Source of the DNA: Alphaproteobacteria bacterium
Lineage (GTDB): Bacteria; Pseudomonadota; Alphaproteobacteria; ATCC43930; CGMCC-115725
DNA: 34,527 bases
Direction of reading: 5' to 3'
NCBI GenBank assembly: GCA_030041335.1
Contig: JASHOB010000106.1
Span: forward strand, 1-34,527
In this document: piece after piece, positions 8,066-33,784 of the stretch
How positions within the stretch are numbered: position 1 is the stretch's first letter
Layout of the letters: each line of letters begins with the position of its first letter
The notes under the pieces: generated by a model
Database searches by the model: none
What the model was told of the DNA's origin: nothing
Seen by the model: the letters and a program-made list of their open reading frames with translations, nothing else
Made by a program: the position numbers and the translations under genes

Positions 8066-8791
8066 TCAGAGCGCAGCACGCAGCTGCGCGTCGAAATGAT
8101 CGGCGAGAGCGTTGAGCAAAGCGGCCGCGTCACCGCTATAGACCGGCCCGTGCATCAGCGCGAGGCGCTGCGGATTTAAGTGGGCGAGCTTGCGGATCAT
8201 GTTGCCGGTATCGGGGGTGAGACTGGTGGCGTGCGCTTGTCCTTCGAACGCGATCGCCGGCGAGAGAATATCGCCGTCGGAGAACAGTGCGGCATCGCCC
8301 GACTGCGCCAATAGATCGCTGCAAAACAGCGTGCCGGTCGTCTCCTCGTAGATTAGTCCCGCATCCCAGCAATGCGGCAAATGCGGCGTCGCCATATAGC
8401 GCACGCGCTTGCCGCCAATGTCGAGCGCATCGCCATCGCGCAATGCGCGCGGCTCACGAATTGCGGTGTCATTGAGCCAGATATTGCAGCCGATGCGGCC
8501 CTGAAAGGCGGTTGCCTGCGGCGCGGCGGCGAGCCAGTCGTTGACGGCGCCGGCCTCGTCGGCTTCGGCATGCGAATAGCCGATCCATCGCAACCGGTCG
8601 ACCGGCATCACCCGCGCCAAAGCCGCCGATCCCAATTGAAAACGCTGGTGATGGCCGCAATGGAACAACAGGGCTTCGTCGGCATCGATGACATACTCAC
8701 AAAAGGTGATGCCATTAGGGCCCCCGGCCGACGACACGAAAGTCGACATGCGATAGATATGATCGGCAATCTCATCGATGTGGGTTTCCAT
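8066..8791 (-). CDS. Stand-alone MBL-fold protein with flavodiiron-type diiron ligands
   Basis: A 241-residue metallo-beta-lactamase-fold protein. The usual HxHxDH motif is replaced by H74-x-E76-x-D78 (SHAEADEAG), followed by H140 (TPHLPHCWD), D159 (LFCSDLL) and H214 (LMHGPVYSG). The order and spacings (H to H 66, H to D 19, D to H 55) resemble the diiron centre of flavodiiron proteins and oxygen-sensing ODP domains. The second histidine after D78 is replaced by E79, and no flavodoxin domain follows. Such domains reduce or bind O2 or NO, so it may sense or scavenge oxygen species rather than hydrolyse a substrate. GAGGTGG lies ahead of the ATG. It is the last gene of the minus-strand aromatic unit. 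Hydrolase function remains possible. Confidence 0.8.
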   Translation of the reverse strand: METHIDEIADHIYRMSTFVSSAGGPNGITFCEYVIDADEALLFHCGHHQRFQLGSAALARVMPVDRLRWIGYSHAEADEAGAVNDWLAAAPQATAFQGRIGCNIWLNDTAIREPRALRDGDALDIGGKRVRYMATPHLPHCWDAGLIYEETTGTLFCSDLLAQSGDAALFSDGDILSPAIAFEGQAHATSLTPDTGNMIRKLAHLNPQRLALMHGPVYSGDAAALLNALADHFDAQLRAAL

Positions 8792-8940
8792 CGTACCACC
8801 TCAAAAACTAAGGGCTCGTGCGACCAGGCCGCCACGGCGTTCGCTCCGCACCGGTCGCGCTTCAAGTGTCCGCACAGCCGATCCCGACCCGGTCACGCTT
8901 GCGGTCAGGCCATGGCCTTGCCTCCAAATTGGCAGGCCTC
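8792..8940. other. 149-base spacer between MBL-fold and LigB-like genes
   Basis: The spacer on the minus strand between the LigB-like stop and the MBL-fold start. I find no gene, hairpin terminator or clear operator. It is long enough to hold a separate promoter for the MBL-fold gene, but no convincing -35/-10 pair was found. Confidence 0.4.
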
Positions 8941-9771
8941 TCAAGTCAGGTTCCATGTTGCAAAGCCGCAGCCAACATAAACCTCCGGCACCGGCAGATA
9001 TTCCAGCAATTCGAAGCCGCGGCTCCCGGCAGCGGCGTGAGCGATGAACCAGCTGCGCACTTCATGCCCGCCATTCCCGGCGGTCGGCAGTTTCGCCTCG
9101 AAATAATCGATAAGCGGCGCCTCGTCACCAGCGGCGAAGAGGCGGATCGAATCCGCATCGAATTCCGCATCGATCTCGCCCATGGTCGGCTCGCCGATCG
9201 AGTGACTGAGGCCGCCACTCGCCAAGATCACGACGCGAAGTGCTTCGTCATAGGAACGGGTCGCCGCTGCGAGCAACCGGCCCCACGCCAGGCAACGTCG
9301 TACGCTCAGCATTGGCGGCTCGATCTCGTTGACCAGTATCGGGACGATCGGCGGCGGTGGATCGAGCCCCGCACGCCATAGCGGAATACAAACACCGTGA
9401 TCGAGCGTCAGGCGATGCGACAATGCCGGCTCGAAGTCTTGTGCCAGAGCGGTCCGCGCCAGATGCTGGCCCAATCCGGCATCCCCAGTCAGCGTCGCGT
9501 GGGGATAGACGCGGCGCATGAACGGCTCCGGCGGGCCGTCATGTTCGGATCCAACGCCGATGCACACACTCGGCAAATTATCGAGGAAGAAATTAACCCA
9601 ATGATCGGTCGCAATTTCGAGAATGACGTCGGGACGCGCGGCCGCAATGCGTGTCCCGACTTTGTCGTAGGCGGCGGCCAAACTCGCCCGCAAGGTCGGC
9701 GTGAAAGAGTCCCAATCCCGCGCCACCAGCGGGGCATGGCTCGCTGCGAAAATGCCGACGATTTCAGCCAT
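8941..9771 (-). CDS. Class III extradiol ring-cleavage dioxygenase, LigB-like catalytic subunit
   Basis: The catalytic (beta) part of a protocatechuate-4,5-dioxygenase-type enzyme, which opens catechols next to the hydroxyl pair using Fe(II) and O2. In this 276-residue protein the LigB active-site residues are all present by position: H12 (ASHAPL), H57 (TDHW), H125 (TLDHGVC, matching LigB H127), H190 (GGLSHSIG, matching H195, the general acid/base) and E237 (matching E242). The start is the second in-frame methionine (9771), which gives the family's normal N-terminus; the longer version would run into the LigA-like gene. It overlaps the LigA-like gene by 8 bases. The ring substrate (protocatechuate, gallate or a dimer-derived catechol) cannot be told from sequence. 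Confidence 0.9.
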   Translation of the reverse strand: MAEIVGIFAASHAPLVARDWDSFTPTLRASLAAAYDKVGTRIAAARPDVILEIATDHWVNFFLDNLPSVCIGVGSEHDGPPEPFMRRVYPHATLTGDAGLGQHLARTALAQDFEPALSHRLTLDHGVCIPLWRAGLDPPPPIVPILVNEIEPPMLSVRRCLAWGRLLAAATRSYDEALRVVILASGGLSHSIGEPTMGEIDAEFDADSIRLFAAGDEAPLIDYFEAKLPTAGNGGHEVRSWFIAHAAAGSRGFELLEYLPVPEVYVGCGFATWNLT

Positions 9772-10033
9772 CGATCTTGTCCGCCGCCAGGCCGCGCAAG
9801 TCGGCAATAAAGTCCGCGTCCTTGACGCCGCTATATTGGTAATAGAAGCGCAGCAGATAGGCGTTCACCCGGGGCGCCAACACCGCGATGTCGCAGGTCT
9901 CGAGCGCGCGCAGCACCGCCGGTTCGAGCTTGTAGTTCGCCAGCACCGAGGCGCGGTCCGCGCGGTAGGCCTCACGCAGTTTCGGGTCCTGCAAATCGAA
10001 CATCAACTTCGAAAGCCAGTAGTCGGTCGCCAT
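9764..10033 (-). CDS. Extradiol dioxygenase small subunit, LigA-like
   Basis: An 89-residue all-alpha protein starting MATDYWLSKLMFDLQDPKLR, with LETCDIAVLAPRVNAYLLRFY in the middle. It matches the LigA alpha subunit of protocatechuate 4,5-dioxygenase, which caps the LigB active site. The start at 10033 is chosen because it forms a TGATG overlap with the upstream tannase-family stop; translation could begin 18 bases earlier. The 8-base overlap with the LigB-like start is a typical ligAB arrangement and supports a heteromeric enzyme. Confidence 0.88.
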   Translation of the reverse strand: MATDYWLSKLMFDLQDPKLREAYRADRASVLANYKLEPAVLRALETCDIAVLAPRVNAYLLRFYYQYSGVKDADFIADLRGLAADKIDG

Positions 10034-11631
10034 CACATCTCCGCGCCACAAGTGAAGTTTGCCGCGTCATCGGTGTTGCCGGTGCCATTGTAATTTGCCA
10101 CCTGCGGATAAGGACAGAGCGGCCGGCTGCGCGTCACCTTGCCCGCGACGATTCGGCGCGCCTCGATACGGTCCGGCGCTTTGCCGGTCTCGACCCAGTC
10201 GATCAAGTTGGTGATCGTATCGAAATGGTCGGTGCCGACGCCGCCGCGGCAATGAAACATCCCGGGTACCATGAAGAGCCGGTAGAAATCGCCGGCGTTC
10301 GCGCCCGACGCCGCCTTCGCTTTCTGATAATAGTCGATCGACATGAGCGGCGTCAGCGCCGGATCGGCCCAGCCGTGAAAATGCAGCAGCTTGCCGCCAT
10401 GTTTGCGATAGGCAACAAGGTCGGGATCGGTTGCGTTTATCAAGGCGCGGATTTTGACGCCTTGCGACGGACCCTTGTTGAAATCGTAATTTCGATAGCT
10501 AAGACCGGGGGCGGGATGGTCGGCGACAAGCTGCGGCAAGGCAAAAGCGACCTGCAACGGCTTGCCGGCAAACGGTCCGTGGTTGATCGGGATCATCCAA
10601 CCGTTCCAGCCGCTCGTCGGCGGCATGTTCGGCACGCCCTGTCCCACCGCCTCGGGTCCCTTGATGTAGCCGAAGAAATACGGTTTGCCGTTGCTGACGA
10701 CGCCACCATAGATTTTGTGTAGTGCGTCGGTCTCGTTGGGCGTCAGGCATTCGGCGTCGCTATGCGCGGCCGTGCACTGCTTGACGTCGCGCGCCGGATC
10801 GAAATTGCACTTCCGGGGATCGTCGATCACGCCGTCGACGGTGCCGTCGAGCGCGTCGCATTTCTTGTAGAGTGCATCGGCGACCGTCTTGATCTTGGCC
10901 AGCGTGAACTTGCCTTCATCGAGCGCGCGTCCAAGCCACATACCGAGAATCTGGGTGTCGACCACGTTCAGCAACGGCGCCACGATGACAATGCCGTCGA
11001 AGTCGGCGGGGAAACGCTGCGCCTCGATCAGCCCCTGGCGCCCGCCGGTGGAGCATCCGTCCCAATAGGCGTGCGCCGGTCGATGGTCGTAATAGATGCG
11101 GGCAATGCGCTTTGCCTCCAGCACGGTGAGATGCACGGCGCGATAGGCATAATCGGTCAGTTTCTGCGGGTCGATGACGAAGCTCGTGAGCTCACGCCTG
11201 TCGTCGTGTCCGGCATTGGTCTGGGCGACGACGAAATTGTGGCGCAGCGCGTCGTTGCGCACGACCACGCGCGGCGGCTCGTCCGGCCGTTCGCCGGCGA
11301 GCCCGCCGTTGCCGAACATGTAAAATCGCGCGTTCCACATCGCCGGCAAGTCGACCTCGAAGCCGATTTCGGGCGCGATCACGCCGCGCACCCGACAATG
11401 CTGCGGGACACCGTTCGCCGCGGCGACGGTGGCGGCGGAGGTAATGGCGACGTCGCGCGCACCGGCGCCGGTCTGGAGCGCCGCACAAGCACGTTTCGGC
11501 ATGACCGACGGCGTGCTGTAATCGATCGTCGATTGCGCGGCGTCGGAGAAACTGTAGGTGAACTGGGCATCGGCGGAAAAACTCCAGGACAGGACCGCCA
11601 TGGCCAACACCGCGACGGCAAATCTGTTCAA
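10033..11631 (-). CDS. Secreted tannase / feruloyl esterase family hydrolase
   Basis: A serine esterase of the tannase family (532 residues), which splits esters of gallic, ferulic or related aromatic acids; MHETase is in the same family. A signal peptide (NRFAVAVLAMAVLSWSFSADA) points to export. The catalytic residues are S194 in DGCSTGGRQG, D423 in HGWADPALTP and H460 in MFHCRGG, with the adjacent C193 and C461 placed to form the family's triad-linking disulfide. The loop DALDGTVDGVIDDPRKC near 259-275 matches the lid-domain calcium site. The start is uncertain: TTG at 11631 has a better distance to GGGAGGA than GTG at 11634. It is coupled to the LigA-like gene, so ester hydrolysis and ring cleavage may follow each other. 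Confidence 0.9.
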   Translation of the reverse strand: MNRFAVAVLAMAVLSWSFSADAQFTYSFSDAAQSTIDYSTPSVMPKRACAALQTGAGARDVAITSAATVAAANGVPQHCRVRGVIAPEIGFEVDLPAMWNARFYMFGNGGLAGERPDEPPRVVVRNDALRHNFVVAQTNAGHDDRRELTSFVIDPQKLTDYAYRAVHLTVLEAKRIARIYYDHRPAHAYWDGCSTGGRQGLIEAQRFPADFDGIVIVAPLLNVVDTQILGMWLGRALDEGKFTLAKIKTVADALYKKCDALDGTVDGVIDDPRKCNFDPARDVKQCTAAHSDAECLTPNETDALHKIYGGVVSNGKPYFFGYIKGPEAVGQGVPNMPPTSGWNGWMIPINHGPFAGKPLQVAFALPQLVADHPAPGLSYRNYDFNKGPSQGVKIRALINATDPDLVAYRKHGGKLLHFHGWADPALTPLMSIDYYQKAKAASGANAGDFYRLFMVPGMFHCRGGVGTDHFDTITNLIDWVETGKAPDRIEARRIVAGKVTRSRPLCPYPQVANYNGTGNTDDAANFTCGAEM

Positions 11632-11698
11632 CACGTTCCTCCCTCGGCGACGGGAAAGACGCTGGAAGCGCGGACTGGGCTCGTCCAGGCGCGACGCG

Positions 11699-12541
11699 CT
11701 ATTTGCGCTGCGATGCGGCGGCCGATGCCAGGGCCGGCCAGGCGGCGGGCGCGCGCAACCTCGCCGCCGCCTCGCGTGACGGCAGGCTGGTATCCCAATC
11801 GCGTGCAATGAAGCGGAAACCGCTGACGCCGTCCGATTGCGGCGATGCCAGCCAACGAATCGGCGGCCCCATGAGTGTCGGCCTTAAGAGACCGTCCCGC
11901 GGGAACTCCGGCGGAAAAAACGCGGTGTCGGTCGGTCCGCCCGGCACCAGCACGTTGGCCGTGACGCCAGTGCCGTCGAGCTCTTTGGCCCAGATCGCGG
12001 TATTGGCTTCGAGCGACGCTTTGGCACTGCCATAGGCGCTGAGGCCTGGCGCCATCATCGTGTCGTAGCTGGTGGTGACATTGACGATGCGACCCCATTT
12101 GCGCTCGATCAGGTGGGGTGCAGCGACGTGCGCCATCAAATAGGCGCCCGTCGCGTTAATCGCGATGATACGCAACCAGCCTTCGGGCACCGTCTCCCAG
12201 AAGCGCACGCGTCCGGTCGCGTTACGCGGCTGCGCCGGTGCCATGCTGACGCCGGCATTGTTCACCAAAATGTCGACGCCGCCAAATTCCGCTACCGTTC
12301 GGGCAACGACGGCACGACAATCGTCGAGCGAGCTGACATCACCCGAGATGCCGACGAATCTCCGCTCGTTGTGCCGGTCACGCCATTCCGCGTCGAGACG
12401 GGCGAGACGGGCGCCGTCGATATCGACGCCGGCAACCCGCGCACCGGCATCGGCGAGCGCAGCCGCCATCACCGCGCCCATCCCGCTCGCGGCGCCGGTG
12501 ACAATCGCCGTCTTGCCGGACAAGTCGATGCCGTCGCTCAT
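11699..12541 (-). CDS. Short-chain dehydrogenase/reductase (classical SDR)
   Basis: A 280-residue classical SDR. It has the nucleotide-binding TGAASGMG (15-22), the NNAG motif at 94-97, catalytic S158 in TTSYD, and Y170-x3-K174 in AYGSAK. GVD at 38-40 ends beta-2 with an aspartate, which favours NAD(H) over NADP(H). The start at 12541 is set by GGGAGGGG directly upstream and the family N-terminus; an in-frame extension to 12754 overlaps gdh and looks random. It is the first gene of the minus-strand unit that continues with the tannase-family enzyme 64 bases later. The alcohol or ketone substrate is unknown. The alanine-rich C-terminus after the Rossmann fold is probably disordered. Confidence 0.88.
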   Translation of the reverse strand: MSDGIDLSGKTAIVTGAASGMGAVMAAALADAGARVAGVDIDGARLARLDAEWRDRHNERRFVGISGDVSSLDDCRAVVARTVAEFGGVDILVNNAGVSMAPAQPRNATGRVRFWETVPEGWLRIIAINATGAYLMAHVAAPHLIERKWGRIVNVTTSYDTMMAPGLSAYGSAKASLEANTAIWAKELDGTGVTANVLVPGGPTDTAFFPPEFPRDGLLRPTLMGPPIRWLASPQSDGVSGFRFIARDWDTSLPSREAAARLRAPAAWPALASAAASQRK

Positions 12542-22149: not shown

Positions 22150-23304
22150 TTGAAGCTCAGCACCGACCGCATTCTCACCACCCATGTCGGCAGCTTGCCG
22201 CGCTCGGTTGGCTTGTCCCAATTATTGCTCCAGAAGGACCATGGCGACGCCTATGACCGGGCGGCCCTCGATCGCGCCGCACGCGAGGAGACCGCGGCCA
22301 TCGTCAAGCGTCAGGTGGCGATCGGCATCGACATCGTCAGCGACGGCGAGACCGGCAAGGTCGGTTATGCGACCTATATCCACGACCGCCTTTCCGGCTT
22401 TTCCGGCAGCAATGTCGCCAAGCCCAATCTTGACGTAGCACCCTATCCCGAGTTCCGCCGCCGCATGGCCCTGATGACGGGAACGCCGGCCTTCACCCGC
22501 ATGTTTTGCACCAGCCCCGTTACGGTGAAAGACCATGCCGCCGTCAAGAACGATGTCGCCAATTTCGTTGCGGCGATCGAGGCGGCGAAGCCGGTCGATG
22601 CTTTCATGACGGCGGCGTCGCCAGGCGTGATCTCCTCTTTTCAGCCCAACCGATTTTATCCCTCGCATCGCGCCTATATCGAGGCGGTGGGCGCAGCCAT
22701 GCAGGAAGAATACGAAACCATTGCCCAAGCTGGCATCGTCTTGCAACTCGACAGCCCTGACCTCGCAATGTCACGCCATACCGGCTTCCAGGACTTGACC
22801 GAGGCCGAGTTCCTGGGCCGTGCCGAGGAGCAGATCGAGGTGCTCAACCACACGGTGCGCAACATTCCCGCCGAGCAGATGCGGATTCACCTGTGCTGGG
22901 GTAACTACGAAGGGCCGCACGACCACGACATCGCTATCGGCAAGGTCCTCCCGATCGTGCTGAAGGCCAAGCCGCAGGCGATTTCCTTCGAGGCCTCGAA
23001 TCCGCGTCATGGCCACGAGTGGGCGGTATGGAGCGAGGCGAAATCGCGCATTCCCGGCGACAAGGTCCTGATTCCGGGCGTGATCGATTCCTGCACCAAC
23101 TATGTCGAGCACCCGGAACTGGTGGCGCAGCGCATTGGCCAGTTCGCCGATATCGTCGGCCGCGAGCGGGTGCTTGCCGGCGTCGACTGCGGTTTCGGCA
23201 CCTTCGCGGGCATCAGCAAGATCGATCCGGAGATCGCCTTCAAGAAGCTCGGGGCGCTCGTCGAAGGTGCGGCCCTGGCGTCGAAACGGCTCTGGCCGCG
23301 ATGA
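22150..23304 (+). CDS. MetE C-terminal-domain-like zinc methyltransferase (cobalamin-independent synthase II family), copy 1
   Basis: A 384-residue TIM barrel resembling only the C-terminal, catalytic half of MetE, starting MKLSTDRILTTHVGSLPRS. All four zinc ligands are kept: H247 and C249 in RIHLCWGNYEG, E281 in SFEASNPRH and C347 in AGVDCGFGTF. The N-terminal folate half of MetE is absent. Relatives move methyl or alkyl groups to thiols; epoxyalkane:coenzyme M transferase is one. True methionine synthesis is not implied. The start is TTG at 22150, with GGGAGG six bases before it. Its stop overlaps the ATG of a 69-residue gene. Substrate and acceptor are unknown. Confidence 0.88.
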   Translation: MKLSTDRILTTHVGSLPRSVGLSQLLLQKDHGDAYDRAALDRAAREETAAIVKRQVAIGIDIVSDGETGKVGYATYIHDRLSGFSGSNVAKPNLDVAPYPEFRRRMALMTGTPAFTRMFCTSPVTVKDHAAVKNDVANFVAAIEAAKPVDAFMTAASPGVISSFQPNRFYPSHRAYIEAVGAAMQEEYETIAQAGIVLQLDSPDLAMSRHTGFQDLTEAEFLGRAEEQIEVLNHTVRNIPAEQMRIHLCWGNYEGPHDHDIAIGKVLPIVLKAKPQAISFEASNPRHGHEWAVWSEAKSRIPGDKVLIPGVIDSCTNYVEHPELVAQRIGQFADIVGRERVLAGVDCGFGTFAGISKIDPEIAFKKLGALVEGAALASKRLWPR

Positions 23305-23617: not shown

Positions 23618-24382
23618 GTGGATCTTCAGCTTGAAGGCAAGAAGGCAATCGTCACCGGCTCGACCCGCGGCATCGGCCGTGCCATCGTCGACGCTCTGGC
23701 CGACGAAGGTTGCCATGTCGCGATTTGCGCTCGTAACCGAGAGCAGGTCGAGCGAGCGGTGAAAGACTTGTCGGCGAAAGGCGTCAAGGCCTGGGGCCGG
23801 ACATTCGATGTCGCCGACACCGCGGCGCTGGTCAAATTCGTCGACGACGCCGCAGCGGCGCTCGGCGGGCTCGACATCTACGTTTCAAACGTCAGCGCCT
23901 TTGGCCGCGCGGCCGACGAGGCGGCGTGGCGAAACAGCTTCGAAACCGACATTCTCGGCACCGTGATGGGAGTGCAAACGGCGCTGCCTCATCTCGAAAA
24001 GGCGGGCGGTGGTGCCATCCTTGCCATCGGCAGCGTCGGCGCCGTCGAGCCGGCGCCCAGCCATCCCCGCCCCTACCCGTCGATGAAGGCGATGTTGCTG
24101 CCCTTCATAAAGTCGCTCGCGGTGCATTACGCGCCGAAGCAGATTCGCGCCAATGTCGTATCACCCGGCACGATCTATATCGAGGACGGCGTCCATGGCC
24201 GCACGCGGCGCGAAAATCCCGCGGCATATCAGGCTGCGCTCGCCCGCAATCCGATGGGACGCATGGGTCGGCCTGAGGAAGTCGCCAACGTCGTCGCTTT
24301 CCTGGTCAGCCCACGCGCCAGCTTTGTCACCGGCAGCAATGTCATGGTCGATGGCGGCGGGACCCAGCGGGTCCAGTACTGA
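23618..24382 (+). CDS. Short-chain dehydrogenase/reductase with altered NNAG motif
   Basis: A 254-residue SDR of the FabG-like fold. It has TGSTRGIG (13-20), an ICARN end to beta-2 that favours NADP(H), and the catalytic S139, Y153 and K157 (GSVGAVE, YPSMK). The usual NNAG at 90-93 reads SNVS instead, an unusual change seen in some SDR subgroups. The C-terminus ends [19 protein letters not shown], as in fatty acid and hydroxy-acid dehydrogenases. GTG at 23618 follows GGGGAG. Its stop overlaps the next ATG (TGATG at 24380-24384). Position between two MetE-like genes is reminiscent of the SDRs that follow epoxyalkane:coenzyme M transferase, but no such substrate is proven. Confidence 0.88.
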
Positions 24383-25554
24383 TGCCGTCGGATCTGGGGA
24401 CGCTACGCGTCGACCAGGTCGGCGGGCTCGCCGCACCCAAGGCCTACTGGCATGCCTTCACCCAATTCCGCGATGGCGCGATCGACGGGGCGACATGGGC
24501 GACACTTCAGGACGAAGCCGTGCGCAAGGTGCTCCGCTCTCAGGAAGCGATCGGCTTTCCGATCCTGACCGATGGCGAATTGCGCCGCTCCAACTTCCAG
24601 GAGAGTTTCGCCAATGCGGTCAGCGGCTTCGATGTTCCCGACGGCGCACTATACAATTACCAGCGCGGCGCCCATGCCGGTCTTGGCAATGTTCGCGCCG
24701 AGCAGGACTTCTCGGCGCCGGGCCCCGCGATTTTTACCCGCCGTCCGGTCGTGGCCCGGCTCCGGCTGGTGCGCAACGTGGTGCTTGAGGAATATCGCTT
24801 TGCCGTCGCCAACGCCGCGACGCCGGTGAAGGTGACGCTGCTTGGACCCGACCGTATTGTCCAGCGCTTCGACTGGGAAAAATCGCGCGCCATCTATCGC
24901 GACATGGACGAATTCCTCGCCGACGTTGTCGCCATCGAGCGCGTGATGATCGCAGAGCTGGTTGCCGCCGGCTGCCGCTACATTCAGATCGACGCCCCCG
25001 GCTACACGGCCTATGTCGATCGGCTTTCGCGCGAGCGGATGACGGCGCGCGGCGAGGATCCCTCCGCCAACCTCGCCCGCTCCATCGCCGCAGACAATGC
25101 GGTGATCGCGGGGTTCGACGACGTCTTGTTCGGACTGCACATCTGCCGCGGCAATCCGCGCACCGTCGATCCCAGGACCGGCAAGATCGTCGGCCAATGG
25201 CATCGCGAAGGGCACTACGACGCGATTGCCGAGCAGCTCTTTAGCGGGCTTCGTCACCATCGTCTCCTCCTCGAATACGACACCGAGCGCGCAGGCGACT
25301 TTTCGCCGCTTCGCTTCGTTCCCAAGGGGAAGATCGCGGTGCTCGGTCTGGTCACGACCAAGGACGCTGCAACCGAGGACAAGGACGCGCTGAAACGACG
25401 GATCGACGCGGCGGCGCGCCACCTGCCGCTCGACCAGCTCGCGCTCAGCCCGCAATGCGGCTTCGGTGGCCTCAGCCCCAATGTCATCGACCCTGAAGAG
25501 CAATGGAAGAAGCTGACGCGGATCGTCGAGACCGCCGCCGAAATCTGGCGCTGA
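24382..25554 (+). CDS. MetE C-terminal-domain-like zinc methyltransferase, copy 2
   Basis: A second, clearly diverged MetE-type barrel of 390 residues. The zinc ligands are again complete: H253 and C255 in LHICRGN, E298 in LLEYDTE and C359 in SPQCGFGG. It starts [19 protein letters not shown], and ILTDGELRRSNFQESFA near 61-77 matches the substrate-pocket segment of this family. It is coupled to the SDR by a 1-base overlap. Sequence is too different from copy 1 to be a recent duplicate, so the two probably act on different substrates. No folate-binding half is present. Function beyond thiol-directed alkyl transfer or lyase chemistry cannot be given. Confidence 0.87.
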   Translation: MPSDLGTLRVDQVGGLAAPKAYWHAFTQFRDGAIDGATWATLQDEAVRKVLRSQEAIGFPILTDGELRRSNFQESFANAVSGFDVPDGALYNYQRGAHAGLGNVRAEQDFSAPGPAIFTRRPVVARLRLVRNVVLEEYRFAVANAATPVKVTLLGPDRIVQRFDWEKSRAIYRDMDEFLADVVAIERVMIAELVAAGCRYIQIDAPGYTAYVDRLSRERMTARGEDPSANLARSIAADNAVIAGFDDVLFGLHICRGNPRTVDPRTGKIVGQWHREGHYDAIAEQLFSGLRHHRLLLEYDTERAGDFSPLRFVPKGKIAVLGLVTTKDAATEDKDALKRRIDAAARHLPLDQLALSPQCGFGGLSPNVIDPEEQWKKLTRIVETAAEIWR

Positions 25555-25652: not shown

Positions 25653-27137
25653 ATGGCCGAACCGATCCGTTTTCCCGATGTGCCGGTCTACGCGGGCTGG
25701 GGCGCACCGGTGCGGCTCGAATCCGAGCTGCGCGATCTCGAGGTCGTTGCAGGCCGGGTACCGGAAGATCTGAACGGAACGCTCTATCGCTGCGGGCCCG
25801 ATCCGCAGTATCCGCCGATGCTCGGCGACAGCGTGTTCATCGACGGCGAAGGCATCGCATCGATGTTCCGCTTCGACCATGGCCACGTCGATTTCCGTAC
25901 CCGCTATATCCGCAACGAGCGTTTCACCTTGCAGGAACAGGCGCGGCGCTCGCTGTTTGGGCGCTACCGCAACCGCTACACCGACGATGACAGCGTCAAG
26001 GGTAAGAATCGCGGCACCGCCAACACCAACGCCATCTGGCATGGCGGCAAACTGCTGATCCTCAAGGAGGATTCGCTGCCCTGGGAGATCGATCCCGACA
26101 CTCTCGAGACCATTCGCGAATGGAATTATGACGGGGCGGTCAAGGCGGTGAGCATGACCGCGCATCCGAAGCTCGATCTGCAAACCGGCGAGTTGCTGAC
26201 CTTTTCATACCAGGCGAAGGGCGATGCCACGACCGACGTGGTGTTCTACGTCATCGACAAGCACGGCAAGGTCGTCCACGAAATGTGGTTCAACGCGCCC
26301 TGGGCGCCGATGGTCCACGATTTCGCCGTCACCGACACGCACGTCGTGATTCCATTCTTCCCGTTCGAGACCGATTTCGACGTCATCAAGGCGGGCGGTC
26401 CCTTCTATCAATGGCATCCCGACCGCCATACCGCCGTAGCGGTGTTCCCGCGCCGGGGCCGCGACCACGAAATTCGGTGGTTCCGTGGTCCGCCTACGAG
26501 CGCCGGACATATGATGAATGCCACGATGGAGGGTTTAAAACTCCATCTCGATCTCTGCCTCTATCAGGGAAATTGCTTTCCGTTTTTCCCGACACCCGAC
26601 GGCAAGGAGACCGAGCCGGTGCCGCCGTTCTTGACACGCATGACCTTCGATCTCGCGGGCAACAGCGACGGTTTCGAGACCAAGCAGCTCTCCCGGATGC
26701 CGAGCGAAATGCCGCGCACCGACGACCGCTACCAGGGTCGCCCCTATCGCCATGGCTATATGATCTGCTTCGGGCCCGACCGCGCCGGCGGCAGCATGGT
26801 CGGCCATCTCGATCACGCCACCGGCCAACTGAAGCTGTGGAATCCAGGCGAGGCATCGGGCGTGCAGGAGCCGTGCTTCGCCCCCCGTCGCCCGGACGCG
26901 GATGAAGGCGACGGCTACCTCCTCGTGCTGATCAATCGCCTCAAGGAAATGCGCAGCGATCTCGCCGTTCTTGACGCGCGCAAGATAGAAGCGGGACCCT
27001 TGGCGCTGATACGGCTGCCGACGCGGCTGCGCATGACCTTTCACGGCATGTGGGTGCCGGCGAAGGCACTCGAGACCGGCATCTACCCCGCCACCGCGAT
27101 GCACGAGGCCGCGATCCGCGCTGGAGTGCATGCATGA
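25653..27137 (+). CDS. Carotenoid oxygenase family, lignostilbene dioxygenase type
   Basis: A 494-residue seven-bladed propeller protein with the four iron histidines H171 (MTAHPKLD), H222 (MVHDFA), H286 (SAGHMMNA) and H464 (FHGMWVP). Y105 (GRYRNRY) and K138 (LILKED) fit the tyrosine and lysine (Y101 and K134 in NOV1, by memory, at a constant offset of 4) that hold the phenol hydroxyl in stilbene-cleaving members. This points to cleavage of the central double bond of a 4-hydroxystilbene, giving two hydroxybenzaldehydes, rather than carotenoid cleavage. ATG follows GGAGAG. The stop overlaps the ATG of the SnoaL-like gene, so both are made together. No signal peptide is seen; the enzyme is cytoplasmic. 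Confidence 0.9.
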   Translation: MAEPIRFPDVPVYAGWGAPVRLESELRDLEVVAGRVPEDLNGTLYRCGPDPQYPPMLGDSVFIDGEGIASMFRFDHGHVDFRTRYIRNERFTLQEQARRSLFGRYRNRYTDDDSVKGKNRGTANTNAIWHGGKLLILKEDSLPWEIDPDTLETIREWNYDGAVKAVSMTAHPKLDLQTGELLTFSYQAKGDATTDVVFYVIDKHGKVVHEMWFNAPWAPMVHDFAVTDTHVVIPFFPFETDFDVIKAGGPFYQWHPDRHTAVAVFPRRGRDHEIRWFRGPPTSAGHMMNATMEGLKLHLDLCLYQGNCFPFFPTPDGKETEPVPPFLTRMTFDLAGNSDGFETKQLSRMPSEMPRTDDRYQGRPYRHGYMICFGPDRAGGSMVGHLDHATGQLKLWNPGEASGVQEPCFAPRRPDADEGDGYLLVLINRLKEMRSDLAVLDARKIEAGPLALIRLPTRLRMTFHGMWVPAKALETGIYPATAMHEAAIRAGVHA

Positions 27138-27661
27138 GCGCGGTGCCGCGCAAACTCTCCGTCGAGGATCGGCTCGATATCCAGGAACTATTTGCAAAAT
27201 ACTCCTGGGGAATTGATCTCGCCGACGCCGAACTGGCTTTGTCGTGCTTCGCCGACGATGCCTGGTTCGACCATCTATGGCAGGGTCGCGTGCAAGGCCA
27301 TGCGGCGATCCGCAAGAACCTCGAGGAACTGTGGTACGACCGCCAACACTGGTGGTACGGCCGGCAGCATCTCTTCAGTCATTTTCTCATGGATCCGCTC
27401 ACGACCGACGAGGGCGAGGAAGGCGCGCGCGTCCGCAGCTTTTTCCAGATCCTGCAGTTCAATGTCGAGTATCGTACCAATTTCGTGTTCGGCATCGGCA
27501 CGCGCGACGACATCTGCGTCAAGCGCGGTGGCGTGTGGCTGTTCAAAATGCTCAAGGTCAACGCCTGGTCGACGCGCGAGGCGGTGCCGTGGCAGGGCGA
27601 GGTGAAGCTTGTGCCCGCGCCGGGGGCGCGGCCAGCGGCCAAGCCGCAAGCGGCGGAGTAG
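27134..27661 (+). CDS. SnoaL/NTF2-like protein, possible diarylpropane-lyase-type partner
   Basis: A 175-residue SnoaL_4/NTF2-like cone fold: helical N-terminus LSVEDRLDIQELFAKYSWGI, then DAELALSCFADDAWFDHLW, the typical SnoaL-like start, and a curved sheet ending NAWSTREAVPW. Members are isomerases, dehydratases, lyases or the small subunits of ring hydroxylases. H47 and the cluster HWWYGRQHLFSH (72-83) line the usual pocket. The ATG overlaps the dioxygenase stop, so it is co-translated with a stilbene-cleaving-type enzyme. In sphingomonads an NTF2-fold, cofactor-free lyase (LdpA) removes formaldehyde from a diarylpropane diol to make lignostilbene, the substrate of such a dioxygenase. That role is inferred here from pairing and fold, not from a proven motif. 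Confidence 0.85.
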   Translation: MSAVPRKLSVEDRLDIQELFAKYSWGIDLADAELALSCFADDAWFDHLWQGRVQGHAAIRKNLEELWYDRQHWWYGRQHLFSHFLMDPLTTDEGEEGARVRSFFQILQFNVEYRTNFVFGIGTRDDICVKRGGVWLFKMLKVNAWSTREAVPWQGEVKLVPAPGARPAAKPQAAE

Positions 27662-27691: not shown

Positions 27692-28444
27692 ATGTTGTTG
27701 TTTGTCGCCCATGCCCGGGCGGCTCCCCTCGTGGCCTATTATGATGCGACCTGGGCGTCGCTGCCGGCGGGCCATTTGGCGGCAAGCTTCGACGATGACA
27801 ACCGGGCCTACCGCGATACCTTGCAGATGGACACGGTCGGCCTGCCGCAGCTGTTGCTGCATTTTCACGCTCGCGTCGAATCCGCCGGAACGTTCGCCGC
27901 CGATGGCGGGGCGCGGCCGGAACACTACGCCGTCGATTATGATTTGCGTAAATACCGCAACCAACGCGTCAGCGTCGCCTATGTCGCCGGCGACGGCGGC
28001 CTCGTGGCCGAACGCACCCCACAGGACACTAATCGCAAGCCCCCGCTGCCGGAGAGTTATCGACGCAACGTGATCGATCCGCTCGCGGCGTTCGCGGCGC
28101 TGCGTCAGCATCTGCTGCGTCATGACGCCAAGGCCGGCGACCACTTCATCATGTCAGTCTTCGACGACGTGCGACGATTCAATGTCGCCGTAACGATTAG
28201 ATCTACCGGCGGCACCAGCAAGCTGGTCCGGGTACATCTCGATCTGATGGCGGTGGCGGGCTTTCGAAGAAAGGATGATCGCTATGCTCCCGAGGAAGCG
28301 CCGCGGCCTATCGATGTGACTTTCCGCGACGACGGCATGATGACGCCGATACAGCTCGACGTCGTGGTCGCGTGGCTGCCGCTTGTCGTCCGCTTCGATC
28401 ATCCCTGCCCCGATCTGGCGCATTGCACAGCACAAGGGAAATGA
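27692..28444 (+). CDS. DUF3108-like exported protein (start uncertain)
   Basis: A protein of 250 residues from ATG 27692. The part YYDATWASLPAGHLAASF and the later HYAVDYDLRKYRNQRVSVAY resemble DUF3108 proteins, outer-envelope-type beta-rich proteins of unknown function. It has a short hydrophobic start ending HARAAPLV that looks like the end of a signal peptide. The frame is open from the previous stop TAG (27659-27661) and reads LHRIAILAAM before the ATG; using a rare CTG at 27665 would give a better signal peptide. No clear Shine-Dalgarno precedes either. It is in the same frame as the SnoaL-like gene. Two late cysteines (CPDLAHC) may pair. It ends the plus-strand cluster. Confidence 0.72.
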   Translation: MLLFVAHARAAPLVAYYDATWASLPAGHLAASFDDDNRAYRDTLQMDTVGLPQLLLHFHARVESAGTFAADGGARPEHYAVDYDLRKYRNQRVSVAYVAGDGGLVAERTPQDTNRKPPLPESYRRNVIDPLAAFAALRQHLLRHDAKAGDHFIMSVFDDVRRFNVAVTIRSTGGTSKLVRVHLDLMAVAGFRRKDDRYAPEEAPRPIDVTFRDDGMMTPIQLDVVVAWLPLVVRFDHPCPDLAHCTAQGK

Positions 28445-28736: not shown

Positions 28737-30101
28737 TCAGGCGATGAAAATCGTCTTTATATTGACGAATTCGCGGATGCCGAACTGCGATAGCTCGCGG
28801 CCAAAGCCCGAATCCTTGATGCCGCCGAACGGCAGACGTGGATCGGAGCGCACCGCATCGTTCACAAACACCGTACCGCTTTCGATGCGCTCGACCGCCA
28901 ACTTCTCGGCGCGCGCCAGGTCGCGGGCAATGAGGGCGCCGCCCAGGCCGAAGACACTGTCGTTGGCGGTGGCGATCGCCTGCTCCTCGTCGTGCACTGG
29001 AATGATCGCAGCCACCGGCCCGAACAGTTCCTCGTCATAGGCCGGCATCCCCGGCTTCACGTCGGTCAGCACCGTTGGCGGATAGAACGCGCCTTTGTGG
29101 TTGGGGATGGCGCCGCCGAGGAGGCACCGGGCGCCCTTGGCAATACTGACCTCGACCTGGCGGTGGAGCTCGTCGCGCAGATCATGCCGCGCCTGGGGCC
29201 CGATCTCGACGGTCTCGTCGAGAGGATTTCCCATTCGCACCGCTGACATGCGCTGAACGAAAGCGGCTTCGAAGCGGCTTTTCAGATTGCCGGTGACGAT
29301 GAAACGCTTGGCCGCGATGCAACTCTGGCCGGAATTGACGAGGCGGCCCTTGGTCGAGATCTGCGCAGCCTGGTCGATATCGGCATCGTCGAGCACGACA
29401 TAGGCGTCACTGCCGCCGAGCTCCAGCACGGTCTTTTTCAACATCTGTCCAGCCTTGGCGGCGACGGCACGACCCGCCGCCGTCGAGCCGGTCAGCGTCA
29501 CGCCGCGCACCAGCGGGTGGTCGATGACGGCGTCGACCGCCCTGCTGCCGATCAGCAAGGTGCGAAACAGGCCCTCGGGGAACCCCGCCTCGACGAAGAT
29601 CTTCTCGAGTGCCAGGGCGCAGCCCGGTACGTTCGAGGCATGCTTCAGCACCATGCCGTTCCCTGCCATCAGGGCCGGCGCCGCAGCACGAAACACCTGC
29701 CAGAACGGAAAATTCCACGGCATCACCGCGACAACGACGCCGAGCGGCCGGAACGCCACGAAGCTTTTCCTCGCGTCGGTCGCCACCGGCTCCGGCGCCA
29801 GAAATTTTTCGGCGTTTTCGGCATAGTAGTCGCAACCGAGCGCCGACTTGTTGGCCTCGGCGATGCCCTCGCGGAGCGGCTTGCCCATCTCCGCGGCCAT
29901 CAGCCGCGCGTACTCCGTTGCGCGCGCGCGCAAAATCTGTCCCGCCTTGCGCATACGCTCGGCACGATGAGGAAAGCCGGTGGTGCGCCATTTGAGATAT
30001 TGCTCATGGGCGGCGACGATCGCCTCAGTCACGGTCGCCGATGACATTTCCTCGTAGCTGGCGATGCGGCTGCCGTCGAACGGATTGATGGCTTCGATCA
30101 T
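28737..30101 (-). CDS. Aldehyde dehydrogenase, succinate-semialdehyde-dehydrogenase-like
   Basis: A 454-residue NAD(P)-dependent aldehyde dehydrogenase. Catalytic residues are N130 (MPWNFPF), K153, E227 (LELGGSD) and C261 (NSGQSCIAAKRF). The C-terminal DPRLPFGGIKDSGFGREL is typical of the succinate-semialdehyde group (Sad/GabD). Length (454) is like E. coli Sad. A perfect AAGGAGGT (30108-30115 on the plus strand as ACCTCCTT) lies before the ATG inside the MFS gene, and the ATG overlaps the MFS stop (ATGA). Because it sits next to a stilbene-cleaving enzyme, it may oxidise an aromatic aldehyde such as vanillin, but succinate semialdehyde remains the family default. Confidence 0.92.
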   Translation of the reverse strand: MIEAINPFDGSRIASYEEMSSATVTEAIVAAHEQYLKWRTTGFPHRAERMRKAGQILRARATEYARLMAAEMGKPLREGIAEANKSALGCDYYAENAEKFLAPEPVATDARKSFVAFRPLGVVVAVMPWNFPFWQVFRAAAPALMAGNGMVLKHASNVPGCALALEKIFVEAGFPEGLFRTLLIGSRAVDAVIDHPLVRGVTLTGSTAAGRAVAAKAGQMLKKTVLELGGSDAYVVLDDADIDQAAQISTKGRLVNSGQSCIAAKRFIVTGNLKSRFEAAFVQRMSAVRMGNPLDETVEIGPQARHDLRDELHRQVEVSIAKGARCLLGGAIPNHKGAFYPPTVLTDVKPGMPAYDEELFGPVAAIIPVHDEEQAIATANDSVFGLGGALIARDLARAEKLAVERIESGTVFVNDAVRSDPRLPFGGIKDSGFGRELSQFGIREFVNIKTIFIA

Positions 30102-31333
30102 GAAAGCACCTCCTTCGCTACGGCGGCTTCGCCGAATGTGGTTCCTTTTGCTTCAACGCCGAGACCGGCAAGTAGTGCGATGGCGATCGCCACGATGCCG
30201 CAGACCCAGGCCATAGCGAGGGCGAAATTGCCGCCGTGGCTGGCGGCGATACCCGCTTGAATCGTCGCGTTCGCCGAAGCCAGCAGGTTGCCGAGTTGAT
30301 AGACGAAACCCGGGAACGTACCGCGTACGGCGTCGGGCGAGAGCTCGTTCAAATGCGCCGGAATGATGCCCCAAGCGCCCTGTACCATGAACTGCATCAG
30401 GAACGCGCCAACGGCCAGCATGGCAGCCGTGGTCGAGAATGCCCAGAGTGGCAGCACCGGAAGGGCAAGCAGCGCGGCAATGACAATCATACGGCGGCGG
30501 CCGAAGCGTTCCGACAGCGTCCCGAAGAGGAAGCCGCCAATGATGGCGCCGATATTGTAGATCACGGCGATCGTGCCAACGGTCCGCGGCGTGAAATGAT
30601 GTTGTTCCCGCAAAAAGGTGGGATAGAGGTCTTGGGTGCCGTGGCTGAAGAAATTAAATGCCGTCATCAAGACGATGGCGTAAAGCGCCAGTGTCCAGTG
30701 GCGCTTAAGGATCGGGATGATGCTGCCTTCCGCACCGACGTGCGGCCGCCAGCTCGGGGATTCTTTGACATTGCGGCGGATAAACAGCACCAGAAGCGCC
30801 GGCACCACGCCGACCATGAACATCCCGCGCCAGCCGATCCAGGGATAAAGCAGGCCAAAAACCACGGACGCTAAGAGATAGCCGGTCGGGTAGCCGGCCT
30901 GGAGGATGCCCGATACGGCGCCGCGGGCCTTCGCCGGGATCGTCTCCATTGTGAGCGACGCGCCGATGCCCCATTCGCCGCCCATCGCCACGCCAAAGAG
31001 AGCGCGCAACACAAGCAGCGACGTCAAGCTCCAGGCAAAACCCGACGCGAATTCCAACACGGAATAGAGAACGATGTTGACCATCAGCATCGGCTGGCGG
31101 CCGAACCGATCGGCAAGCCGGCCAAAGACGAATGCGCCGACGGGGCGCATTGCCAGGGTGAGGAAGATGGCAACCGTGACCTCGGTCAGCGGTACTCCGA
31201 ACTCGGCGGCGACATCCTCTAAAATGAACACCATCAAAAAGAAATCGAACGCATCGAGCGTCCAGCCGAGATAGCAGGCCCAGACAGCGTTGCGCTGGTC
31301 ACGAGTCCAGCCAGAAAAGACGGCCGTCAGCAT
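30098..31333 (-). CDS. MFS transporter, organic-acid / sialate-type
   Basis: A 411-residue 12-helix major facilitator. The first helix contains LGWTLDAFDFFLM, which resembles the DxFDxx helix of aromatic-acid and sialate/lactate symporters; GRLADRFGRQP (loop 2-3) and GTLSERFGRRR (loop 8-9) are the two MFS signature loops. These carriers couple proton entry to uptake of carboxylates, so an aromatic or short-chain acid is expected. It is translationally coupled to the aldehyde dehydrogenase, which could act on the imported or derived compound. GGAG lies eight bases before the ATG. The substrate cannot be stated. Confidence 0.88.
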   Translation of the reverse strand: MLTAVFSGWTRDQRNAVWACYLGWTLDAFDFFLMVFILEDVAAEFGVPLTEVTVAIFLTLAMRPVGAFVFGRLADRFGRQPMLMVNIVLYSVLEFASGFAWSLTSLLVLRALFGVAMGGEWGIGASLTMETIPAKARGAVSGILQAGYPTGYLLASVVFGLLYPWIGWRGMFMVGVVPALLVLFIRRNVKESPSWRPHVGAEGSIIPILKRHWTLALYAIVLMTAFNFFSHGTQDLYPTFLREQHHFTPRTVGTIAVIYNIGAIIGGFLFGTLSERFGRRRMIVIAALLALPVLPLWAFSTTAAMLAVGAFLMQFMVQGAWGIIPAHLNELSPDAVRGTFPGFVYQLGNLLASANATIQAGIAASHGGNFALAMAWVCGIVAIAIALLAGLGVEAKGTTFGEAAVAKEVLS

Positions 31334-32164: not shown

Positions 32165-33784
32165 ATGCAGGAATACGACTATATCATTGTCGGCGCCGGT
32201 TCTGCCGGATGCGTGCTGGCCAATCGCATCACCGCCGATCCGGGCCTCAAGGTATTGGTGCTCGAGGCCGGGGGGCGCGACCTTCATCCATACGTTCACA
32301 TGCCACTGACCTGGCGCACCATTTGGCAGGGCCCGCTTTATAACTGGATGTACAAGACCGAGCCCGAACCTTATCTCGACGGGCGCACGGTCGCGCTGCC
32401 GCGCGGCAAGGTGCTGGGCGGTTCCTCGACCATCAACGGGCTGCTCTATATTCGCGGCAACCCGCGCGACTACGATACCTGGCGGCAACTTGGCAATTAC
32501 GGCTGGAGCTACGATCAGGTTCTGCCTTATTTCAAGCGCTCGGAAAACAATTGGCGTGGCGAAAACCAGGTGCATGGCGGGGACGGGCCTCTGCAAGTCA
32601 CGCCGGTCGACGTTACGCAGTATAGCTACGAGCCAATGATGCAGGCCGCCGTCAATGCCGGCATCCCGCTGACCCATGATTTTGCCGCCGATCCCGAGGG
32701 CTTCAACCGGCTCGACGTGACCGTCGGCAACGGCCGGCGCTCGAGCACCGCTCGCGCCTATCTCTATCCCGCGATGACGCGGAAAAATCTCTTCGTCATG
32801 ATCAACGCGCTGAGCCACCGGGTCATCGTCGAAAAGGGCCGCGCCGTCGGCGTTGAGTACGCGCATCGCGGCAACATCTTCAGGGCCTGGGCCCGCCGCG
32901 AGGTGATTCTCTCAGGCGGCTCCTATAATTCGCCGCAGCTCCTCATGCTGTCGGGAATCGGCGACCCCGACGACATCACGCGCCACGGCATCAAACCAGC
33001 GCACGAACTCAAGGGTGTCGGCAAGAATCTCTCGGAGCACCCCATTGTCGGCATGCAGTTCGAAACCAACACGACCGATACCTTTGTTCAGCAGCTTCGT
33101 TTCGACCGGCTCGTCGTGCAGGGAATCCGATATGCCATAACCCGCGCCGGGCCGTTCGGGAACCAGGTGATTACTGCCAATGCCTTTGTCCGCACGCGGC
33201 CGGAACTCGAAACGCCCAACATGCAGCTGTTCTTCGCCCCGGTCAGCTTCACGACCAAAGTTTGGATGCCGGGGATCCGCCCGCCGGAAAAGGTCGGCAT
33301 CGGCGGCTCGGTCTGCTTGTTGCGTCCGGAGAGCCGCGGCAGCGTGACGCTGCGCTCGGCAAATCCCACCGACCCTCCCAAGGTCACGCTCAATTTCATG
33401 AAGGAGCAGGTCGATCGTGAGGCGACGCGCGACGGACTGCGCATGTTGCGCAAGGTCTACAACACCAAACCGCTGTCCGAGATGATCGCGCGTGAAATCA
33501 TGCCGGGACCCGATGTCAACACGGACGACGAACTCGATGCCTATATCCGCAAGATGGCGGAGGTATGCCACCATCCGGTCGGCACCTGCAGCATGGGCGT
33601 CAACGGCCAGTCCGTCGTCGATCCCGAGTTGCGCGTGCACGGGCTTGAAGGCCTGCGCGTCGTCGATGCTTCGGTGATGCCCCTGGTGCCGAGCGGCAAC
33701 ACCAACGCACCGACCATCATGATCGCGGAAAAAGCGGCGGACATGATCCTCGGCAAGCCACCCCTGCCCGCGGCCGAGCCCTGA
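32165..33784 (+). CDS. GMC-family FAD oxidoreductase (choline/alcohol dehydrogenase type)
   Basis: A 539-residue glucose-methanol-choline oxidoreductase. The FAD motif VGAGSAGC is at 9-16, signature 1 [17 protein letters not shown] spans 79-95, signature 2 [17 protein letters not shown] lies near 250, and the catalytic pair H470 (HHPVGTC) and N514 (GNTNAPT) matches choline oxidase H466/N510 with a fixed offset. It oxidises a primary alcohol to the aldehyde, with electrons to a quinone or O2. AGGGGAGG lies upstream of ATG. The family includes BetA, but also enzymes that oxidise the side-chain alcohol of lignin dimers (PhcC/PhcD), so an aromatic alcohol is a fair alternative. Nothing beyond sequence separates these. 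Confidence 0.92.

Follow-up and report, generated by a model that had tools for sequence, protein, structure and literature searches.

Six bacterial dimer routes are known to run through a stilbene (PMC12997858), and there is precedent for a lyase followed by a lignostilbene dioxygenase, or LSD (PMC11323797, PMC12997858). In the beta-1 route of SYK-6 and N. aromaticivorans the NTF2-fold SnoaL_4 protein LdpA feeds LsdA/LSD6, and in the beta-5 route of N. aromaticivorans an NTF2 gamma-formaldehyde lyase, PcfL, 44% identical to LdpA, acts before LsdD/LSD4 (PMC11323797). LdpA and PcfL both make their stilbenes with loss of formaldehyde (PMC11323797, PMC12997858), and for LdpA the proposed chemistry is a dehydration that yields a quinone methide (PMC12997858). 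A stilbene-forming enzyme also stands ahead of the LSD in the beta-5 route of SYK-6, but there the reaction is a decarboxylation by PhcF/PhcG, which belong to a different protein family (PMC12997858). We analysed a contig from an alphaproteobacterium in which an LSD gene, a carotenoid oxygenase of the lignostilbene-dioxygenase type (25653-27137, forward strand, 494 aa), is joined to a gene for an NTF2-like SnoaL_4 protein (27134-27661, forward strand, 175 aa). The pair resembles the known lignin-dimer strategy; what is new is the family of its NTF2 partner, which is neither LdpA nor PcfL.

The window, by which we mean the whole stretch of 34,527 nucleotides, is one complete contig (G000:C130); the genome comprises 5.17 Mb in 262 contigs. 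The ATGA overlap of the two genes, already seen in a first-pass annotation of this DNA, is confirmed at 27134-27137 on the forward strand (NTF2 start ATG at 27134-27136, LSD stop TGA at 27135-27137), and the sequence suggests that both are read in one transcript. We propose, at a probability of roughly 0.5, that they form a two-step module in which the NTF2-fold protein makes a stilbene from a lignin-type dimer, likely with loss of formaldehyde, and the LSD then cleaves it. The first-pass annotation had also arrived at a lignin-dimer module, and its pairing of an NTF2-fold protein with an LSD, now placed in the LSD7 clade, stands; a partner orthologous to LdpA, a pair special to non-sphingomonads and a beta-1 diarylpropane substrate are not supported.

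Linkage of the two genes across genomes

A scan of a genome collection with an 11-row alignment that includes the window, made with two peptide patterns that do not reach remote relatives, returned 75 loci, some of them from one genome. In 68 of these an LSD gene lies within the stretch fetched, which extended up to 10 kb on each side of the NTF2 gene, and four of the seven others (L127, L149, L193 and L196) end at a contig edge. A second set, which shares part of its genomes with the first and again includes the window, consists of 35 loci with a close relative of the NTF2 gene, and all 35 have an LSD. The linkage can also be followed in reverse: an LSD of the window type (E 1e-165) occurs in 14 of 249 genomes of the family that includes SYK-6, and all 14 copies are within 2.2 kb of the NTF2 gene. 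The suggested tie between a stilbene-type dioxygenase and an NTF2-fold protein is thus well borne out, and we regard it as very nearly certain that the two serve one pathway.

Counted from the longest open reading frame starts, the 68 linked loci comprise LSD followed by NTF2 on one strand (up to 300 bases apart in 14, up to 3 kb in 4), NTF2 followed by LSD (up to 300 bases apart in 2, up to 3 kb in 19) and divergent genes (up to 300 bases apart in 26, up to 3 kb in 1 and 7 kb apart in L173, whose LSD is of another type), as well as one locus scored as convergent (L170), probably an artefact of the start site chosen. Among the 14 close tandem loci, the LSD stop is part of an ATGA in ten, of a GTGA in two (L141, L147) and of neither in two (L125, L172). 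Within the window's genus, G035 holds both genes with the identical ATGA, and G033, whose contig starts inside the LSD gene, has a GTGA at the junction.

Whole-genome searches of the window's own genome found five RPE65 and 11 SnoaL_4 genes (one of the latter below the curated cut-off), and both kinds occur together only on the window contig. No LSD was found around the other SnoaL_4 genes, and no relative of the NTF2 query near the other four LSDs, in fetched stretches of which some end at contig edges and one, around the second SnoaL_4 gene of C208, covers about 2 kb on one side only. A 40%-identical SnoaL_4 subfamily taken as a control had an LSD in none of four stretches (one of which ended at 3 kb on one side). 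Three of five 30%-identical SnoaL_4 relatives have an LSD at 5-7 kb and two have none; nearness to an LSD is therefore not unique to the NTF2 family of the window, but its tightness is.

Two further groupings of LSD and SnoaL_4 genes were seen on the way. At erythrobacter-type loci (L136-L195) a divergent pair of NTF2 and LSDb, the latter being the second of two NTF2-linked LSD branches, often comes with a TonB receptor (21/75) and a secreted-looking SnoaL_2 protein (19/75). A SnoaL_4 family of about 30% identity (L060, L064, L066, L068, L073, L078, L092, L093) clusters with NOV2-type LSDs and varying sets of genes for an NmrA-like reductase, an FAD-linked oxidase and a PQQ dehydrogenase, and these clusters are possibly tied to lignan catabolism. 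We rejected this family as a candidate for LdpA because a member fails to match the LdpA structures in the PDB; a small NTF2-like open reading frame beside a NOV2-type LSD is likewise not LdpA.

By their entry names the 75 loci belong mainly to Sphingomonadales and erythrobacters, with further carriers in Niveispirillum/Azospirillum, Caulobacterales, Hyphomonadaceae, Parvularcula/Marinicaulis and gammaproteobacterial metagenome-assembled genomes (Nevskiaceae, Steroidobacteraceae). Three of 43 genomes of the window's order have the NTF2 gene, all of them of its genus; an even draw of the class gave matches in 2 of 385 genomes (the window's own and G284), and in the family of G284, to which SYK-6 belongs, 34 of 397 genomes match at E 1e-10. 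A relative 58-68% identical is present in 32 of these 34, and only a remote one (about 30%) in G530 and G689. The LSD-NTF2 pair is real, common and old, and it is not peculiar to the window's genome. The host is indeed no sphingomonad, its genome sharing only the class with SYK-6, but the idea of a pair special to non-sphingomonads fails, most of the 75 loci being from sphingomonads or erythrobacters, SYK-6 among them. One locus labelled Microbacterium sp. 18062 (L133) has an LSDb-NTF2 pair that groups with an alphaproteobacterial LSD, and may represent contamination, a mislabelled contig or a transfer.

The dioxygenase and its counterpart in SYK-6

The SYK-6 pair (L185, NC_015976.1, 991143-1011628) shares the linkage, 59% identity in the LSD, 61% in the NTF2 protein and, as discussed below, a particular isoleucine in the LSD pocket. 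Its gene order is aldehyde dehydrogenase (ALDH), NTF2, zinc alcohol dehydrogenase (ADH), alpha/beta hydrolase, LSD, near apparent phc genes; in the window, by contrast, LSD and NTF2 overlap, and no relative of the ADH or the hydrolase was found at E 1e-5, nor was one at L125. Two GMC oxidoreductase genes start 3.5 kb from the SYK-6 LSD on one side, and on the other, at about 6 kb, there is a tandem pair of genes from a single family, of which one was tested and is DUF3237. We take these two genes to be phcF and phcG, on the assumption that PhcF and PhcG are DUF3237 proteins. The published lsd7 is no more than about 5 kb from phcCD and phcFGH, PhcC and PhcD being GMC oxidoreductases (PMC8191317), and because these positions fit, the SYK-6 LSD of the NTF2 cluster is almost certainly LSD7, that is SLG_09440, called lsdB in PMC12997858. 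The same genome (G563) also holds an LSD 100% identical to LSD4.

According to PMC8191317, LSD7 lysates cleave and prefer lignostilbene, LSD6 lysates also cleave it, lsd7 is upregulated on DCA in work cited there, and the physiological roles are described as still open. Among the literature matches listed there is no mention of SLG_09400, SLG_09410, SLG_09420 or SLG_09430, and beyond the work on LdpA and PcfL no literature on an LSD-linked NTF2 family was found, in a coverage that is thin for subscription journals.

The window LSD belongs to the RPE65/carotenoid oxygenase family (Pfam RPE65, E 1.8e-126). It scores 524 and 449 bits with the NCBIfam lignostilbene models, below their respective cut-offs of 800 (equivalog) and 650, as does an LSD of the same clade from L071 (490 and 430 bits); the models may have been drawn for other isozymes. 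The closest solved structure is the LSD of Pseudomonas brassicacearum (5v2d), and the LSDs of TMY1009 and SYK-6 come next. Residues were mapped onto SYK-6 LSD4 (numbering from PMC8191317). All four iron histidines (His167/218/284/476) are kept as H171, H222, H286 and H464, as annotated in the first pass together with Y105 and K138, which correspond to the phenol-binding Tyr101 and Lys134; the three second-shell glutamates (Glu135/353/418) are kept as E139, E352 and E406. Ser283 of LSD4 is Gly285 in the window, and glycine also occupies this place in CAO1, the P. brassicacearum LSD, LSD1 and LSD7 (PMC8191317).

A tree of 83 LSD rows places the window LSD in a 40-row clade (support 100/97) together with the LSD from the NTF2 cluster of SYK-6. 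The SYK-6 protein taken as LSD6 lies outside this clade, and another LSD of the window's genome, on contig C157 and 56% identical, branches beside it. The fork that joins the two NTF2-linked branches, LSD7-type and LSDb, has support of 43/82, which is too little to claim that a change of partner took place independently. We consider it probable, with good confidence, that the window LSD cuts a 4-hydroxystilbene.

Proposed pathway and competing explanations

The order of steps, catalytic residues and substrate that we infer are as follows. The NTF2-fold protein would act first, in a pocket probably lined by Tyr23, Asp28, His79 and Arg124, which are identical in 48 of 48 relatives. It would act on a diaryl substrate that bears a para-phenol, removing the benzylic hydroxyl or opening the corresponding ether, and the resulting quinone methide would become a 4-hydroxystilbene, most likely losing the gamma carbon as formaldehyde, as with LdpA and PcfL. 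The coupled LSD7/LsdB-type iron dioxygenase would then use O2 to split the C=C bond, giving two aromatic aldehydes that dehydrogenases would oxidise. That the NTF2 protein makes the stilbene in one way or another, whether by deformylation of some dimer, by the beta-1 route proper or by plain dehydration, seems likely.

A number of observations weigh against this pathway. Three loci with full stretches (L145, L153, L163) have no LSD within about 10 kb, the nearest LSD at L081 (G755) is more than 6 kb away, and the C157 LSD has no such NTF2 gene nearby, so that reciprocity is not absolute outside the SYK-6 family. The genes for ADH, hydrolase and ALDH join the cluster in sphingomonads, and at L131 the ADH start also overlaps the NTF2 stop; the NTF2 protein could therefore act elsewhere in the path. 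The gene lsd7 is the closest of the LSD genes to the beta-5 (phc) genes, yet LSD7 is poor on the beta-5 stilbene DCA-S (PMC8191317), and in the LSDb rows arginine replaces the phenol-binding lysine, which argues against one interpretation for all NTF2-linked LSDs. The first-pass annotation was right to see a stilbene pocket in Y105 and K138 but overlooked a third residue: Phe59, the key ring-stacking residue of LSD4 (PMC8191317), is replaced in the window LSD by Ile63 (codon 25839-25841, forward strand, by arithmetic from 25653). LSD4, the partner of PcfL, differs from the window LSD in keeping the phenylalanine, as do six further LSDs elsewhere in NTF2 loci; at this place SYK-6 LSD7 and the LSD7-type rows linked to NTF2 carry Ile (L159 has Val), the LSDb rows with that linkage carry either Leu or Ile, and the SYK-6 LSD taken as LSD6 carries Leu. 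Since LSD6 and LSD7, with Leu and Ile, cleave lignostilbene in lysates, Ile63 is no argument against stilbene cleavage and Phe59 is not defining.

The remaining points against the pathway concern the distance of the NTF2 protein from LdpA. Compared as two sequences, they share 24.7% identity across 162 aa (E 0.17), and profile comparison gives a moderate link (88%, E 3e-6). His97 of NaLdpA, whose catalytic role is suggested by the title of PDB entry 8abu (H97Q with substrate), aligns with His83 of the window protein in the profile alignment or with Pro88 in another; His83 is histidine in 40 of 48 relatives and threonine in the SYK-6 relative, and the invariant His79 is nearby.

Other features place the proteins in one superfamily. 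The window protein matches Pfam SnoaL_4 above the cut-off (E 2e-15), as LdpA and one PcfL-like protein also match that family, and an N-terminal Tyr-x4-Asp motif is common to the window protein, LdpA and the PcfL-like proteins. The LdpA sequences compared are those of solved structures: SYK-6 LdpA, located by position, is 100% identical to 8abv/8abw, and N. aromaticivorans LdpA is 8abt/8abu. The window protein has no counterpart of the C-terminal extension found in LdpA (about 241 aa) and in the PcfL-like proteins, and the latter, as fetched here (40-45% identical to LdpA), align with LdpA and not with the window protein. A search of the window's genome at E 0.01 found no LdpA relative, and among 199 genomes from the family of SYK-6 the same query matches in 30; because 21 of these 30, SYK-6 included, also carry a close relative of the NTF2 protein, the two are probably not redundant. 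By sequence the window protein is accordingly not LdpA or PcfL, and forms a separate SnoaL_4 family, another subfamily of the same superfamily; the orthology with LdpA that had been suggested falls on the low identity, the missing extension and the lack of an LdpA relative in the own genome.

An AlphaFold2 model of the window protein (48 rows; pLDDT 88.9, pTM 0.83) predicts a clear NTF2 fold. Foldseek places LdpA eighth (E 3.2e-8), after 2rgq of unknown function, Rv3472, a putative scytalone dehydratase and ActVI-ORFA. VIA-align likewise puts 2rgq on top (Z 19.4), with Caci_6494, named a ring-hydroxylating dioxygenase beta subunit, at 18.3, polyketide-type and dehydratase folds at 17-18, and scytalone dehydratase 1idp, bile-acid 7-alpha-dehydratase 4leh and LinA 3s5c at 17.0 each; LdpA is outside the best 50 rows, which is no evidence that the folds differ. 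The structural comparison thus has LdpA among the neighbours without singling it out. Solved neighbours with a known reaction include the eliminating enzymes scytalone dehydratase, bile-acid 7-alpha-dehydratase, LinA and LdpA, and the predicted fold does not decide between a lyase, a dehydratase and other roles.

These comparisons give some room to a simple dehydratase or isomerase akin to scytalone dehydratase or BaiE, which would form the stilbene by loss of water with no carbon lost, before the LSD cuts it. The scores for the three eliminating enzymes and the place of LdpA in the VIA-align ranking are in keeping with such a protein, and BaiE itself is in SnoaL_4 (PMC10382948); on the other hand a shared fold proves no function, the differences in Z are small, and both lignin-dimer NTF2 enzymes described (PMC11323797, PMC12997858) are deformylases. 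We think a dehydratase unlikely, though deserving of some weight.

A second alternative would place the action of the NTF2 protein behind the LSD or alongside it, with a cleavage product as its substrate or in a different branch of the cluster, for example together with the sphingomonad ADH, hydrolase and ALDH. Genes resembling these three are present in 53, 58 and 56 of the 75 loci (the ALDH matches being about 30% identical and unspecific), which implies a path of more than two steps, but the window and L125 keep LSD and NTF2 together without the ADH and hydrolase, and we consider late action quite unlikely. Still less likely is a true equivalent of LdpA that turns erythro-diguaiacylpropanediol into lignostilbene, the beta-1 route proposed in the first pass: LSD7 prefers lignostilbene (PMC8191317), the Tyr-x4-Asp motif is shared and no LdpA relative was found beside the protein in its own genome, but the co-occurrence with LdpA relatives in other genomes, the absent extension and the low identity all speak against it. 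That the LSD is an apocarotenoid oxygenase with a partner unrelated to lignin is highly improbable, for although the superfamily is the same, the 8'-apo-carotenoid cleaving model gives 210 bits (cut-off 675) and the related PbLSD is reported to cleave lycopene in vivo (PMC6097328), the lignostilbene models score 524 and 449 bits, Tyr105 and Lys138 are kept, the identity to the SYK-6 LSD is 59%, and PbLSD in vitro prefers resveratrol (PMC6097328).

Neighbouring genes and significance

A DUF3108 gene that follows the pair (27692-28444, forward strand) is probably outside it; it is also present in G035 (63%) and had no match at E 1e-12 in the remaining loci searched. Further on are an ALDH gene (28737-30101, reverse strand; its top model, NADP-dependent succinic semialdehyde dehydrogenase, is below cut-off), an MFS carrier gene (30098-31333, reverse strand) and a GMC oxidoreductase gene (32165-33784, forward strand). 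The first-pass annotation had set these last three next to the pair. They are indeed present, but the ALDH and MFS genes run in the opposite direction to the pair, and 4.5 kb separate it from the start of the downstream GMC gene, so that among the window's neighbours coupling is demonstrable for the LSD and NTF2 genes only. The ALDH and MFS proteins, with 31% and 27% identity to those near the SYK-6 pair, were rejected as their orthologues; the GMC protein is closer to its two SYK-6 counterparts (51% and 48%), but the GMC family is a broad one.

Two MetE-like (PF01717) genes (22150-23304 and 24382-25554) lie upstream of the window LSD. A MetE-like gene is also directly upstream of the C157 LSD (L222, 7349-8557), and one adjoins the NTF2 gene in G033 (L008, 1133-2278), making this a recurring neighbour in the genus. 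At 6800-11808 the window has genes for a Rieske oxygenase with a LigXa_C domain, a LigB-type ring-opening dioxygenase and a tannase/feruloyl esterase, and from its gene content the contig looks like an aromatic-catabolism region. Elsewhere in the same genome (G000:C18; L224, 5294-7362) another LSD gene overlaps by 4 bases or abuts, depending on the start chosen, a DUF3237 gene whose product is 44% identical to a DUF3237 protein of a sphingomonad NTF2-LSD locus; this may be another stilbene-forming gene that is coupled to an LSD in the same genome.

Dimers form a bottleneck in the use of lignin, and 62 NTF2-superfamily homologs are counted in SYK-6, where more pathways are said to await characterisation (PMC12997858). 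We tentatively suggest, while holding it somewhat less probable than its opposite, that the NTF2 family described here adds a third, separate class to the NTF2 lyases LdpA and PcfL. Linked with the LSD7/LsdB clade and also with another LSD branch, it would open a lignin-dimer type with no pathway yet assigned and supply the missing physiological substrate of LSD7, in several orders of Alphaproteobacteria and some gammaproteobacterial genomes. The conserved, largely reciprocal pairing with the LSD7 clade singles out one of the 62 homologs, in a model strain, and makes the question of what LSD7 does directly testable.

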